From Tubulanus polymorphus (lineage: Eukaryota > Nemertea > Palaeonemertea > Tubulaniformes > Tubulanidae): 64,000 bases of DNA. The position numbers were made by a program, and so were the translations under genes. The stretch lies in contig NC_134028.1 in the NCBI RefSeq assembly GCF_964204645.1, forward strand, positions 5,988,501 through 6,052,500, read 5' to 3'. Of the stretch, positions 6,515-55,112 are shown in pieces; position 1 is the first letter of the stretch, and each line of letters starts with the position of its first letter. Below the pieces are notes generated by a model. The model saw only the letters and a list, made by a program, of their open reading frames with translations, was not told the DNA's origin and made no database searches.

Positions 6515-9500
6515 CTAGCAAACTGACCGTTCGCTGGGGGTAATACCACGACAAAACTTGCGTGCCACACCGGACAAAGCATTCTCGCAAAGCAGCCGAT
6601 AAATATGTCCATATTTGCATTTTTTCGGGTAGCGCTCTTGGAATTTTAGCAGCATTTGATACGCGCATTCGCGGGTGTCGTCTTTGTTCGCGTGTTGAAT
6701 GCAGAGCAGATCTTCTTCGGGTAAATTCAACGAACGCCCGAACGATTTCCACGACTGCAACAATCCCTCGGATATACGCCACATATCCGACGTCGAGATT
6801 TCCTGCCGGTTTTCGAGGATGCTCTGTTCGTCGAACGAGTTGTCGCTGAGCGGTTGTTGTTCGTCCTCGACGGATTGTCGTCGATTTCTTTTGGCAGACG
6901 GACCGGGACTTTCTCGGTTGATCGAACGTTTTCTTTTCGGAGTTGAATTACTGTTTGGTTTACAGCCTAAAGAGAATAAATCATCGATTCGTGAGTGAAT
7001 TTTCTAAGCACAATCAGAGCCGTATTTGGTAGAGTGGTAGAGTGCCCACTTGCATCTGCTTGTCTGCTTGTACCCTTATCCAAAATCTTTCTGTATTCAT
7101 ACAGTAGATTCCACCTAAAGAGTTAGCACCAGGACCCAAATGTTACCGAGACAAATACCGGTAGGCCTATATGAATTTTGGTATATGAAATATTATCGTC
7201 ACATCCAATAGAAATCTATTGTAGAAATCCTTCACTTGGGACTGACAAGCATTGCTATAGGCCTGACAGAGTTGTTAGGGCCTATAAGAATAATTGTTAC
7301 ATCTGTGTTTAATTCTAGGTAACTAACTGCCCTTTTTAGGATTTTTCTCCCCCTCCCTCATATTCAAATGCTAAATACGACCATGTGCGAGAGCTTCAAG
7401 TAACTTTCAAATACATAAACGAGGAACTGATCTCTGACTGACTAATTGAACTTACCCAGTCTACTGATCACTTCGCTTAAACTCTCATCGAGATCATCTT
7501 CTTCTAAACTGCTGTCGATTTTCTGCGGTGGATCCTTAATCTTGAAGCCGATCTGATCGAGACTTCGGTCGTCCTTGACGCCGTTCGCGTTCAGGCGAAT
7601 ATTACGCCCGACCTCGTATAATGCCTGAACGAACTCGTCGGGAGTTCCGCCGCGAGTTTGAAATATGCTCAGCATGAACGCGAACGGGTCCATCGTCGAG
7701 CCGAGTTTATGGTTGACCTCGTGAGCAGTGAAACCGAGGTGTTTCGCGAAAACTTTCCAATTATCGTCGTTGTTGATGCCCAACATACCTGAAATGAGAA
7801 ATTCATATTCATATAGAAAAGAAAAGAAACGTTTTTCAAATCCACTTCTTACACTACCATAGGCAACATTTATATGTTCTGCATAATTAGTACAACAAAA
7901 GAGTTCATAGTGTCCATGACAAATATTATCTAATGACTTTCAAGGCCTATTTTGACTCGGATTACAGCACTTGAACTGTCATGCTTAAGCCAGGAATCAT
8001 GAAATCTACATTTTTCAGGCATTCCAGATTTCAAGAGCTGCTGTAAAAGTGAAGTTATATAATTGGATCTGCAGATGATAAATTATGTCTGATGCCGAAT
8101 GATTTAAGGATTCTAGAGCCTATTCCACGATAATCATGTCCTTGAATTGACCCATTCCCATTATAACTTATAAGGACCTTCAAGGACTGCTATGAACCCG
8201 GCAATGAGGATTAGAGATTTTTCAATGGAGAACACCGAACCCAGAACTTACTGGCTAATTCTTTTACAGCTAATAATGACCACCTGTCAGTCGAGTCGAG
8301 TAACGTCTCAGCTTCATTTCCACTCTACAGAATAAATAAACACAGAATCACTCTAGCACTTATCAGTTATAGGAAGATAATCAATCATTGTGATGGATAT
8401 AGTACCTTAGTGAGATTGAATTCAAACAATGGCTCCATTACTCCAGCCTGGACCATCCTTTCAACTATCACTTTACCAAATACTCCCTTTTCTTTGACGT
8501 TTCCCTTTGAAATTCGAAAGAAACCTCATCATTTTCAACGTCATCATCGATAATAAACAACGTTCAAACATTTTAGGGTTTAGCGACCTCACCTTGTAGA
8601 CGCAAGCGAATTGTTTTTCAAATTCTCGTCCTCGAAAACCGAATTCAACTTTTCTCAGTTCTTGCTCTTCGCCGTTTTCGACATCTGCCTCAAAAACTTC
8701 CGATTTCAAACGAATTACTATTGCACCTGAATAACAAGAAAATCATTTTTACAAATGTTTTCAAACTGGAGGAAGATTTAAATCAAAAGACATCGTACTT
8801 TTATAAGGTTGGCATAAAATAGGACCCAGAACTCCACAGTTGTGAGATTAACCCTTTCAGTGCATCTACACCGCAGTGCGGTGTATAAATCAGTGATTGA
8901 CTTTGCTAGTACACCACACTGCAGTGTATCAACGTATTTGGTAATTAGTTTTAATCAATCCAATAAACGACTGCAGCACCCGTCAAACACTCTTGAATAT
9001 AAGTACCGGTAACTAGCAATACACCGCAGGGCAGTGTAGACTATAGCAGTATGCCCATTATTCAATGTACTAGGGAGGAATTTTTCAAAAATTTTAAAAC
9101 TAACTCCAGCACTTTCAGGGTATTTACTAGTCAGCATTGAAAGGGTTAAGTTCAATTCAATTGTTTAACAAAATGCTGAACCGCAAATGAACCTCGCAAA
9201 TGTGCAACTGGGTCCACATTGTGTCTGGTGCATATACCTGGTTTGACCATCCTCGGTCTGAGACTTCCGCCGACGCGATGCCGATAATTACCGACCTCCG
9301 GGAATCGCTTATCGCTACGATAGCAAATCACCTCCAGTCCGAACGATTTCGAGTCGACGTTCTCGTCCATCATTCCTTGACACATCATCGAAAACTGAAT
9401 GTACGGATAAACGTACGAAACGCCGATCTTACACTCGTACAAACTCGACGCCAGACAATCCCACATCGCTCGATACCACGAAAAATGCGGCACGTTCATT

Positions 9501-11440
9501 TCTAAACTATAATTACCGTTGGCGCCAACGGCGATGCGGTAATCAACGTGGATCCGTTCCCATTGCAACGGCTCTGTTTCGTCGGTATCGCTGCACCAAA
9601 GCGTTATTTGATTATGCGGATTCAAATTCAATCGATTCATGATCGTCAGACAATCGGGTATCGGTAGCTTCAGCGTGACGGGCACCGTCGCGTCGCGTCG
9701 AAACCGACAACCGTGCGGCGCGAGATATACGACCGGAGTCGCGAGAGCGCGTGGCGCGTCGTTCGAAAAATCTAAACAATACGGCTCGTCTCCGTAGACG
9801 ACCTTTATCCGCGCGTCGATATCTTCGACTAGCGACCCTCGCGGAAAATTCACCTCCACGTCTTCGACCTCGTTTACTCTCAACGCGCCGCCGACGTCGG
9901 CTTCAATGCGCCGCCGCGCCACCGGGTACGACTTCTTTACGATCACCGTAAACAGACTGAAATGCCAGGTCTTTATGCAAACGCGATCGTCCTTCAAAAC
10001 GAAACAATCGCGGTCCATCTCGCACCAATCGGTCGGTTCGCCGACTCCGGAATCGCTACACAAGCAAATAATCTCATTACCCGAATCGACCGGTACAGCT
10101 AGAGGTATATCCAAAATGGCCGGTTGACTTTGATAGAATTTTGTTCCGTGCGGCTCTAAACTGACGACCTGACTAGCCTGCGTCGCTCGATCCGATATAT
10201 CTGGCGCATACGACAAATCTTCAACGATATCCAATTCGAATAAATCGTTGGCGTAACCGGAGAGATTTTTCGCCGGGATCGAAACGGCGACGTTTTTATA
10301 CTTGAGTCGTTTCGTGCCGCTGTTCGTCACGAATTCGCGGCATTCGCCGATTTCGTCAGTTTCCGAATCGTCGGAGCAGATCTCGAGGAACGACCGATTC
10401 AGCAAATCCGAATCGGAGTCGTCGATATCGCTGGCGTCGCCGATGCTGCCGTGGTCGCCGTAAACGCTGTCCGTATCGTCGGTCGCGCCACTGCAAATTC
10501 CGATCGAGCATTTCTCATCGGTCGGCGTGGCCAACGATCCGTAATCGCTTGTGACACGCGGTGTCGTACCGCCCGATGCCGGAAACAAGTTTCTCGGGCG
10601 AAAAGATGCGTTCGCCGATGCCTCGGTTGGAACGCTACAATGCGACGAATCGATAACGACAGCTTTCATCGGTTCTAATTTCGGCTTCGTGAATTCCAAA
10701 TCGTCGTCTGGTTTATGATGATTGAAGGTGAATTTTGACGGTAATCCGTCGAAGCTGAACGCGCGACGAACGCGAGACACGTGCTGCTGCTGCTGCTGCT
10801 GTTTGGGTTGTTCATTTTCCTTGTCTTTTTTCGGCGTTACGCGTAATTTCAAATTGCGCAATTCGTCGAGAAACGAATACTCGGCGTTGTTCGCATCGTT
10901 GTCGTCGCAACTAGGAACGTGAACGTCGATTTTGAAATGTCTCCGTAACGCGACGAGACCGCCGAGGAACTCGTCTTTCGGCACGTTCGCGATCGGGTTT
11001 TTCGAAATGAAGAATTTTCGCAATCGCGGCAAATACAATATCAACTCGTCCAGATGACCGATCAGATTGCCGGAAAAATTCAAATACTGCAACAGTTGAA
11101 GTTTTATTAAAGACGCGGGAATGAATTTTATTTCGTTATGAGAAACGTCGAGATGTTTCAACTTTTTCAAACACTCGATGCTCGAAGAAACCTCTTGTAA
11201 CGCGTTGTGCGTAACCGTAAGGTGTTCAAGATTCACCAGCGCCCATAAACAAAACGGTAACTGCTTCAAAACATTATGACTGAGGTCTAATTTCGACATA
11301 GTCGTTATTAACGGTTCTTGGCACAACGACGGCGGAATCGAAGATAAATTCGACCCGCGTAGTTTGACGTCTTTTTTCTTCCATTTTTTCGCCTCGATGA
11401 CTACGCTTTCTACATAAGATATACCCCTTAAAGGAAGCAT
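6515..11440 (-). CDS. PIDD1-like: PIDD1-like protein (LRR-ZU5-ZU5-UPA-death domain-death domain)
   Basis: Six coding exons on the minus strand: 11440-9193, 8726-8593, 8504-8406, 8324-8252, 7788-7456, 6966-6515; 3339 bases, about 1112 residues. The start is the ATG at 11440, because an in-frame TGA lies just upstream; GTG at 11455 is not a real start. Seen in the translation: about five leucine-rich repeats (residues 45-160), a low-complexity acidic/polyQ linker, two ZU5 domains (about 375-495 and 505-655), each ending in His-Phe-Ser (Ser about 495 and 654), a UPA-like region, a first death domain (about 835-920), a basic linker with KRKR and KRNRR, and a second death domain at the C-terminus. 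In vertebrate PIDD1 the HFS sites are autoproteolytic and the single death domain recruits RAIDD (caspase-2) or RIP1. The second death domain is not part of vertebrate PIDD1. The first donor (GTTCAT) is weak but gives a clean frame. A UNC5/ankyrin-type relative is less likely because of the LRRs and HFS pairs. Confidence 0.85.
8848..9149. mobile_element. TTAA-flanked MITE (piggyBac-type)
   Basis: The segment is bounded by TTAA on both sides, with inverted ends CCCTTTCAGTGC (left) and the complement of GCATTGAAAGGG (right). TTAA target duplications are typical of piggyBac-like elements. It has no coding capacity and sits in PIDD-like intron 1, starting 42 bases beyond the exon 1 donor. A related, decayed copy is at about 984-1093. 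Confidence 0.65.
9479..9487 (-). other. Second HFS autoproteolysis motif (end of ZU5-2)
   Basis: The codons read His-Phe-Ser in the context PHFSWY at the end of the second ZU5 domain. Human PIDD1 has an HFSWY-type site at the corresponding place, whose cleavage yields the pro-death PIDD-CC fragment. Both sites being intact suggests the two-step processing is ancestral. Confidence 0.7.
9956..9964 (-). other. First HFS autoproteolysis motif (end of ZU5-1)
   Basis: The codons read His-Phe-Ser in the context KTWHFSLF at the end of the first ZU5 domain. In human PIDD1, cleavage between Phe and Ser at the corresponding position yields PIDD-C. Cleavage here is inferred from the conserved motif and position. 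Confidence 0.7.
10782..10801 (-). repeat. CAG/CTG microsatellite coding a short polyglutamine
   Basis: A run of GCTGCT units on the plus strand reads as about seven glutamines in the PIDD-like linker between the LRRs and the first ZU5. It lies in a region without other domains and is likely length-polymorphic. Confidence 0.8.
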
Positions 11441-31556: not shown

Positions 31557-31724
<168 letters not shown>

Positions 31725-52638: not shown

Positions 52639-54490
52639 TTATCTACAGGCACAGGACTGCACGCTCATTCCCGGGTAGTTTTTTAACACGACATTGTGAC
52701 TTTCGTCGAAGTAAAGAAGCGTTACTGACGTCATACTGTCAGGCACACAACATGGCGCTGGTACGTTCGCGTACATCCCAATGGCGTGAACAATGCTCTG
52801 TATCGTGGCGTGGTTTGTCGGTCGCATTCCCTAAAAAGATTATTCAAAATATAACATTATTCAGAGCGAACTAGATATTTCATCACCATCTTATTACTTC
52901 GATGATTAACTAACGATCTCTAAGTTATTTGAATATGCAGATGAGTTTAACAGTTTCAACAATGAAGGCGATTGTTTATGCTCACCTTAGTCAATGGAAA
53001 AGGACACGATCCTCCGCAGTAATGTGCCTCGAACGATTTCGGTGAGATAATCCATTCTCCCCAGCCGATGTCGGCAAAGTCCACCTGAAGTTTGCGCTTT
53101 GCGCACAATTGTTCATTTTGGTTATCTGGCCAGGCTTCATTTTTGCGCCGCCCGTGTGACCAAAAATTGGGCAACGTTTTGCTTTTGTGGTATCGGTTTT
53201 TGTTCTTTCGTCGGCTGTGTTTCCGATTACGGTTACGTCGTCGGTCGGTCTCGTACGAGTCGGGAAACGGGATGAGTTTCGAGTCTCCGCGATTTTTGTT
53301 TCGGTGTTTTCGATTTCGCGATCGTCTGCCTTGTAACATGCCCGGATGTGTAATCGGTATGCTGTAACCACGATGTCTCTGGCTGTATAGATCAACCGCC
53401 GGTACTTCGGGAATTTCGTTATCGATAATCGACCTTCGTTTTCGGCTGCGGCTCGCTTCACCTTTCGTCTTACTAGTTTCATCACGTGGTTCGTCTGCCA
53501 CGGGCGGCTCTTTTACCATGTAAGAATCTTCATAATCGAACTTCGCTTTTGTTTTCGTTTTCTTGAACGGGATCGGTTTACCAACCGGCCCTATCATGAT
53601 AAGATTCTTACCGGGTTCCTCTCCCGGTATGATCGACACGACCTCCTTGTCGATATCGCGGTTCTCATTTTTAGGCGGTAACTTCTTTTTGGTTTCTTTT
53701 TCTGTCTCCGTTTTGTCGGCTTTATGCGCTGTTTCAACGTTTTCGAAATCGCCCGGCGAAAACTCTCTATTTTCGTTATCCTCGTGTCCGACCATCGCTA
53801 ATTTCTTGTCATCTCGATTCACGGTGATTCTCACCACCCCTTTACCTTTACCGGGCGCTTCTATTTTACGATTCAGAATCGGGTCCAATAATTTCTCGTC
53901 GAAGAAAAAATGTCGTTGTTTCTTAGAGTTGCGACCTTGGCCTTTATGTTTAGGCGGGATCGTTTCGTTGTCGATAGTGGCCGACTCTTCGCTGCTGACG
54001 TCATCGCCGCCCGGGAAGCCGGTCTCGGCTAACTGTTTGTTCAATTCGATCAAATCTTTCGGTTTGAAATGCGGATCGATGTGGTCTATGGTGAGATTTT
54101 GCGTGTCGTTCGAATAGATAATCAAGAACGGTTTCGAATGATGGCGGATGAATTTCTTCAAGGGGATATCAACGTTCGGATTCCCGCCGCCGGAGCGGAA
54201 CATCAACCCGAACAGATGCTCTCGTCTGCGTGACTTGACGCGTAAACACGTCTGCAGGGCCCTCGTGACGTCATAGATTTGCCATCCGTACGTTTTCGAG
54301 CTGATAAATACGTCGCCCAAAGTGTTCAGGTTCACTTTGGAGACGTCGAACATGATCAGACTGATGTCGGAGCCCATACGACGAGTTTTCATCTGTTTCT
54401 TGTACAAGTGAATTTCGGCGCTGAACACTTTCTCGCTCGGTAGAACAGAGCTGAGGTTGAACAGGAATATCCGATGCCTATTGACCGTAC
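52639..54490 (-). CDS. BMP3-like: BMP3/GDF10-type TGF-beta ligand (5' exon missing)
   Basis: Two exons on the minus strand: 54490-52986 and 52830-52639 (stop). The first starts in phase with one base missing and so needs an upstream signal-peptide exon, not found in the window. Seen: prodomain beginning [20 protein letters not shown], a long hydrophilic basic region, a furin-type site SRSRKRRS (codons 53430-53458) and further basic clusters, then a mature cystine-knot domain with seven cysteines. Its words [37 protein letters not shown] and the end SCACR are diagnostic of the BMP3/GDF10 branch. These are secreted ligands that in vertebrates antagonise BMP/activin signalling. The intron after FPLTK splits the mature domain as I recall for vertebrate BMP3. 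The reading upstream of 54490 in the same frame is intronic. Confidence 0.92.
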
Positions 54491-55112
54491 CTGAAAAACA
54501 TAGATCAATATACGGCATTAGATCGATTATACACAGGGTCAAGAGATTGGAATTCAAAGTGAACTGAAAAAAAACGCAGCGCCAATTGAATATGTCGAGT
54601 AAAAATCTTTTCCTGGCCCGAATTTGCCTGGATAGCTTTACTCCCTTCCATAAAAAAATGAAAAACGATAAACTTGAATTTCAATAGCTTTACGGGCGGC
54701 AAAACAAATTATAGTTTTATAGTTTACGCGACATTAACCACTATTAACAAACCGACCCTGCGGTGTGTATATATCAAAATATATGAAAGCAAGCTGGCAA
54801 ATTTCATCTCGTAACTCAAATCTGATCTGACGCTTTTTGTGGCAGGTTTGGCAAAAAATTCAATGTTCGCTTTGTGAGACTTTGAATATTGCATACGAAG
54901 TTTTTGATCTTGCGTTTTGATTGAATGATACCTATTACTTGGTATTTATTTTCCCAAGTCGAAGAATCACGGTTTAGTTCTTGTTAAACGCAGCGGAAGC
55001 ATAGTTGACAAGAGTTGCCCTCGCCAGTTTATTCATGGAATTTTTATTGCACAATTTCATTTACTGTTAAATAATCAAAACTAATTAATTTCTGTCATAA
55101 TTTCAAGAACCC

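Follow-up and report, generated by a model that had tools for sequence, protein, structure and literature searches.

A 64,000-nucleotide stretch of the Tubulanus polymorphus genome (contig NC_134028.1, C4:5988501-6052500, hereafter the window) contains a PIDD-like gene predicted to encode two unlike death domains (DD1 and DD2) in one protein, an arrangement that is confirmed at the sequence level. The predicted protein is ordered as leucine-rich repeats (LRRs), ZU5-1, HFS motif, ZU5-2, HFS motif, UPA-like region, DD1, basic linker and DD2, and thus differs from vertebrate PIDD1 in having two unlike death domains rather than one, with a long basic linker between them. A PIDD-like protein with two death domains had been proposed by an earlier sequence-only reading of this DNA, and the gene model, the two Death matches in Pfam and the E value of DD2 (4.5e-9) uphold that proposal. 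Tentatively, and with somewhat less than even confidence, we regard the protein as a PIDD1-type self-cleaving scaffold in which DD2 would recruit an adaptor and DD1 would work together with UPA.

Gene model and domain evidence

The gene comprises six minus-strand exons (11440-6515) with GT..AG borders and matching phases, in agreement with the exons, coordinates, borders and phases drawn by the sequence-only reading ( Table 1 ). The joined reading frame of 3,294 bases, stop codon included, encodes 1,097 residues. Codon preference, trained on exon 1 against an intron background, gave a clear coding signal in the expected frame of exon 5 (0.33 per codon versus -0.17 and -0.27 in the other frames) and a modest one in that of exon 6 (0.20 versus 0.02 and 0.00). 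Values for exons 2-4 were 0.09, -0.01 and -0.03, each being the best of the three frames, and those of introns 1, 4 and 5 and the 3' flank ranged from -0.28 to -0.54. Also, exons 5 and 6 have G+C contents of 50% and 49%, versus 35-38% in introns 1, 4 and 5.

Exons 5 and 6 lie on the same strand, 489 bp apart, with phase-matched splice sites, and the first ATG in the exon 6 frame is that at the start of DD2. Since no ATG occurs upstream of this point, exon 6 is probably the terminal exon of the PIDD-like gene rather than a separate gene. Assignment of exon 6 to another gene, in which case DD1 and DD2 would never share a protein, is compatible with an exon joining predicted from sequence alone (a point that also counts against the scaffold reading), yet strand, spacing, phase and the position of the ATG make it very improbable. 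Read-through of the exon 5 donor would instead yield a DD1-only protein, leaving the long form as a minor or alternative isoform. Past 7456 the exon 5 frame does continue through K, F and N to a stop; however, the donor is GTAAGT (that of exon 1 is GTATAT), and exon 6 shows coding preference in its expected frame and encodes a significant Death match, so that a pair of such isoforms seems quite unlikely. A repeat-derived exon was rejected, as exons 5 and 6 have no second copy within the window and the exon 5 protein matched only itself in the genome (268 Mb in 77 contigs; E up to 10, one candidate scored).

Pfam profiles were run on the joined 1,097 residues, with stretches counted at E up to 1, and 9 families were listed. 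LRR_8 matched residues 93-150 (E 4.2e-13), placing LRRs at the N-terminus as in PIDD1, and ZU5 matched two stretches, the second of which, as a fragment alone, scored E 2.1e-4 and 21.9 bits against a cut-off of 21. Two HFS motifs, one after each ZU5, occur at residues 493 and 652; 0.095 were expected, and two or more were obtained in only 7 of 2,000 whole-protein shuffles, which bears out the earlier claim that both sites are kept. Of the three domain types that the sequence-only reading had named for checking, Death and ZU5 were recovered with Pfam and UPA was not.

Death matched two stretches of the joined protein, the best at residues 1010-1084 (whole-protein E 1e-11). DD2 alone passes the Pfam cut-off (E 4.5e-9, 36.8 bits versus 22.6) and follows a basic linker with KRKR (residue 958) and KRNRR (residue 973), so that the second death domain stands in the last exon where it had been placed. 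DD1 had been drawn across exons 8324-8252 and 7788-7456; its likeness to the NF-kB p105 death domain, the best match in PDB (E 0.089), held up in pairwise comparison, where the score was reached by none of 1,000 shuffles, but it did not attain the Pfam cut-off (E 0.0016). The best PDB match of DD2 is weak as well (RIPK1, E 0.054).

Both domains were also compared pairwise with a panel of 19 other death domains, consisting of 9 from solved chains (some partial) and 10 from the same genome; the latter are all but one of the 11 further Death matches found there, several being single exons, the omitted one lying at C1:25.84 Mb. The top scores of DD1 were with p105 (z 9.2) and with a domain at C2:29.18 Mb (z 8.4), and those of DD2 with two loci of the same genome, L001 (z 14.7) and L002 (z 11.5), the first being the death domain of a gene that also encodes a CARD. 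Between DD1 and DD2 themselves similarity was at chance level, the score being reached by 151 of 1,000, 185 of 2,000, 228 of 2,000 and 193 of 2,000 shuffles. For this reason a recent tandem duplication of a single death domain, which would predict mutual similarity, is unlikely and was rejected. Single-sequence fold models placed helices across the DD2 stretch in exon 6 (mean predicted local distance difference test, pLDDT, 54.6) and four helices in the DD1 stretch of exon 5, modelled without helix 1 (mean pLDDT 58.3), where 10-residue block means of about 68-79 denote low to middling confidence.

Table 1. Coordinates of the PIDD-like gene and its predicted features in the window.
Feature	Position	Strand	Basis
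Exon 1: start codon, LRRs, ZU5-1, HFS-1, ZU5-2, HFS-2, UPA-like start (residues 1-734)	9238..11440	-	Open frame, donor, Pfam, ankyrin alignment
ZU5-1 (residues 373-461)	10058..10324	-	Best Pfam ZU5 stretch
HFS site 1 (residues 493-495)	9956..9964	-	Motif search
ZU5-2 (residues about 517-593)	9662..9892	-	Pfam ZU5, fragment alone, E 2.1e-4
HFS site 2 (residues 652-654)	9479..9487	-	Motif search
Exon 2, UPA-like region	8593..8726	-	Splice sites and phase
Exon 3, end of UPA-like region	8406..8504	-	Splice sites and phase
Exon 4, putative DD1 start (helix 1 region)	8252..8324	-	Splice sites and phase
Exon 5, remainder of DD1 and acidic linker	7456..7788	-	Pfam Death, p105 shuffles, four modelled helices
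DD1 profile match (residues 838-899)	about 7786-7601	-	Pfam Death below cut-off (E 0.0016)
Exon 6: basic linker, DD2, stop codon	6515..6966	-	Acceptor and phase, codon preference
NLS-like basic clusters KRKR ... KRNRR (residues 958-977)	6878..6937	-	Pattern search
DD2 (residues 1010-1084)	6557..6781	-	Pfam Death E 4.5e-9 alone; RIPK1/ankyrin-subtype profile 46.6 bits

A proposed scaffold and its candidate partners

According to PMC11637483, human PIDD1 has its HFS sites at S446, between the ZU5 domains, and at S588, between ZU5-2 and UPA. The motifs at residues 493 and 652 follow the same order, and by analogy the protein would cleave itself at both, giving fragments of residues 1-494 (LRR part), 495-1097 (C part) and 654-1097 (CC part), the last of about 49 kDa and presumably carrying UPA, DD1 and DD2. 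In the human precedent the second cleavage yields the active CC form, and expressed PIDD1-CC killed cells, PIDD1-C did not and the death domain alone caused no evident death (PMC11637483), which points to UPA. In NLRP1 and CARD8, UPA oligomers favour filament formation by the CARD next to them (PMC7794386). Because DD1 adjoins the UPA-like region, UPA may assemble or restrain it; from this position DD1 could aid oligomerisation or keep the module closed until cleavage. DD2, about 100 residues beyond DD1, would be the adaptor recruiter, binding a CARD-and-death-domain adaptor from another locus of the genome and, by way of this adaptor, a CARD-caspase. As applied to a PIDD-like protein with two death domains, we infer this mechanism by analogy.

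The basic linker might in addition send the fragment to the nucleus. KRKR and KRNRR match a bipartite nuclear localization signal (NLS) pattern, which is weak as a signal because some such pattern arose in 718 of 2,000 shuffles and an equally basic one in 94 of 2,000. Nuclear delivery is possible, and nuclear action would not be unprecedented, since a nucleolar PIDDosome is known from the title of a published paper. The different or larger PIDDosome platform proposed in the sequence-only reading could follow from two death domains on one fragment, as we infer.

Profile searches of the genome gave exon matches that are lower bounds, with at least 12 for Death, at least 6 for ZU5 (including loci on C2 and C12) and at least 6 for CARD. 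In one gene, exons matching CARD (E 3.6e-13) and Death (E 8.1e-13) share a strand and lie within 1.2 kb. Another CARD match, at C7:16.74 Mb, is a piece covering profile positions 40-83 (E 1.7e-4) and bordered by an in-frame TAG; after it come two caspase-domain frames (E 1.2e-8 and 1.2e-16), whose sequence includes QACRG, which we take to fit caspase-2. Both genes are named by architecture, and with the two of them present the genome seems to hold parts of a PIDDosome-type pathway.

The remaining matches include genes of other kinds. As judged by reading, the CARD matches include one in an Apaf-1-like gene and another in a CARD-NACHT gene, and further CARD matches lie at C8:10.34 Mb and C2:28.03 Mb. 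At L032 (C5:23591001-23601000) inspection by eye found a CARD exon and, after it, a NACHT-LRR-like frame of 780 residues that contains the short internal repeat ELSGVNRGIT; a frame of 621 residues built of a tandem repeat lies beyond. Also by eye, death-domain exon L005 (Death E 1.2e-11) is followed at L011 (C11:7168000-7177999) by TIR-like frames on the same strand, and a TNF receptor-like cysteine-rich repeat frame lies upstream of death-domain exon L008 at L012 (C1:27380000-27389999).

Which death domain is extra

Two small subtype profiles were built from 6 and 9 sequences of a hand-picked panel, separating a RIPK1/ankyrin set from a UNC5/p105/MyD88 set. Human PIDD scored 54.0 bits with the RIPK1/ankyrin profile versus 15.1 with the other, and DD2 scored 46.6 bits with the former and was unreported by the latter, although its score is raised because the RIPK1/ankyrin profile includes L001 and L002, its own best matches. 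The subtype of DD1 is undecided (18.9 bits with the UNC5/p105/MyD88 profile versus 17.0 with the RIPK1/ankyrin profile). On these sequence comparisons we lean towards DD1 as the extra domain and DD2 as the counterpart of the human PIDD death domain. The sequence-only reading had implied that the domain of the last exon is the added one, which is doubtful: the profiles speak against it, pairwise scores are equal and a tree weakly favours it.

A number of results weigh against the scaffold reading and this assignment. The UPA-like region had no Pfam UPA match, either in the joined protein or in fragments. DD1 alone remained under the Pfam cut-off in all three cuttings (E 0.0016, 0.014 and 0.0035), and no sixth helix was modelled in its stretch in the piece lacking helix 1; the fold models, being of low confidence, agree with helical folds and prove nothing alone. 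The human PIDD death domain was absent from the PDB matches of both DD2 (15 matches, E up to 10) and DD1 (3 matches). With human PIDD the pairwise z values were 5.4 for DD1 and 5.5 for DD2, and the leader switched with the gap penalty. In a FastTree tree of 18 death domains, human PIDD lay closer to DD1 than to DD2 (support 0.621) and DD2 grouped with FAS (0.632) and TNFR1. DD1 itself grouped there with UNC5B, p105, MyD88 and L005 (0.895), yet its scores with an UNC5-like partial exon (z 0.4) and a MyD88-like domain (z 0.5) of the same genome were at chance, and its second-best match, the C2:29.18 Mb domain, is of the RIPK1/ankyrin subtype by profile; kinship of DD1 to UNC5 and MyD88 is thus weak. 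As for the adaptor, the PDB matches listed for its CARD (21, Apaf-1 first) and for its death domain (33, RIPK1 first) do not include CRADD, so that its likeness to RAIDD/CRADD is one of architecture only.

The equal pairwise scores and the tree also fit a different account, in which DD1 truly corresponds to the death domain of vertebrate PIDD, DD2 being a C-terminal addition. DD1 does sit directly after UPA, and its alignment with human PIDD (2of5 chain H) reveals a common AET before helix 1, W...A.HLG and VQAL. However, in the same alignment human PIDD and DD2 both have residues between helices 3 and 4 where DD1 shows a gap, and DD1 reaches only 17.0 bits in the set where human PIDD and DD2 score 54.0 and 46.6. 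This account is possible and somewhat doubtful. A scaffold with two outputs, UPA and DD1 forming one assembly or lock and DD2 another, with the single vertebrate death domain as a remnant after loss of one, seems unlikely. The outputs of human PIDD1 differ from fragment to fragment. With a natural form that carries two unlike death domains behind UPA, it would become possible to ask which step is controlled by each of them and whether the one-domain vertebrate PIDD is reduced.

Related systems and neighbouring features

Vertebrate PIDD1 (PMC11637483 and PMC8385073) shares with the predicted protein the LRRs, both ZU5 domains with their HFS sites and a death domain at the C-terminus, and its UPA may have a counterpart in the UPA-like region. 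The C-terminal death domain corresponds to DD2 by Pfam; profiles assign DD2 to the subtype of human PIDD and the tree disagrees, the PIDD death domain being the only solved part of PIDD compared. The single-death-domain layout differs, two Death stretches being found, and the number of death domains is treated here as a layout variation that does not define the PIDD1 family. Clams and oysters are reported to have PIDD homologues, and the passages describing them mention no two-death-domain layout. A PIDD with two death domains was not found in a literature search that left subscription papers and protein databases outside its scope, the papers retrieved dealing with p75NTR, engineered FADD and bivalve caspases; such silence is no proof of novelty, and a layout with both domains may be widespread in records beyond that scope.

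UNC5 likewise has a death domain after ZU5 and UPA, and DD1 resembles that of UNC5B (score reached by 5 of 2,000 shuffles). UNC5 is a receptor and is not known to have LRRs of the PIDD-like kind; its extracellular Ig and thrombospondin domains are absent from the 9 Pfam families listed. A separate UNC5-like gene occurs at C4:5.43 Mb, and its partial death-domain exon did not match DD1 (656 of 2,000 shuffles). Ankyrin-1 (E 7.4e-6) and ankyrin-3 (E 1.7e-4) both align with the ZU5-ZU5 region, the ankyrin-3 alignment extending to the start of UPA; ankyrin repeats are likewise not among the 9 families, and a separate ankyrin-like gene lies at C4:7.72-7.73 Mb. The remainder of p105, beyond the domain resembling DD1, we take to be unrelated to the PIDD-like protein. 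A search of viral and prokaryotic collections, in which the query was a set of 368 exon 1 residues rather than either death domain, gave 2 and 23 pattern stretches, none of which was confirmed.

No known RNA family reached gathering scores in the window. An 84-base stretch of intron 1 (8849-8932) recurs near the window start (986-1069) with 84.5% identity. Elsewhere, a 31-base unit is repeated 4.9 times at 285-436 and a perfect TA run of 81.5 copies spans 31558-31720. Neighbours of the PIDD-like gene in the window include a ZSWIM8-like frame and, at 52959-54680, a frame for a TGF-beta-family ligand with its propeptide.

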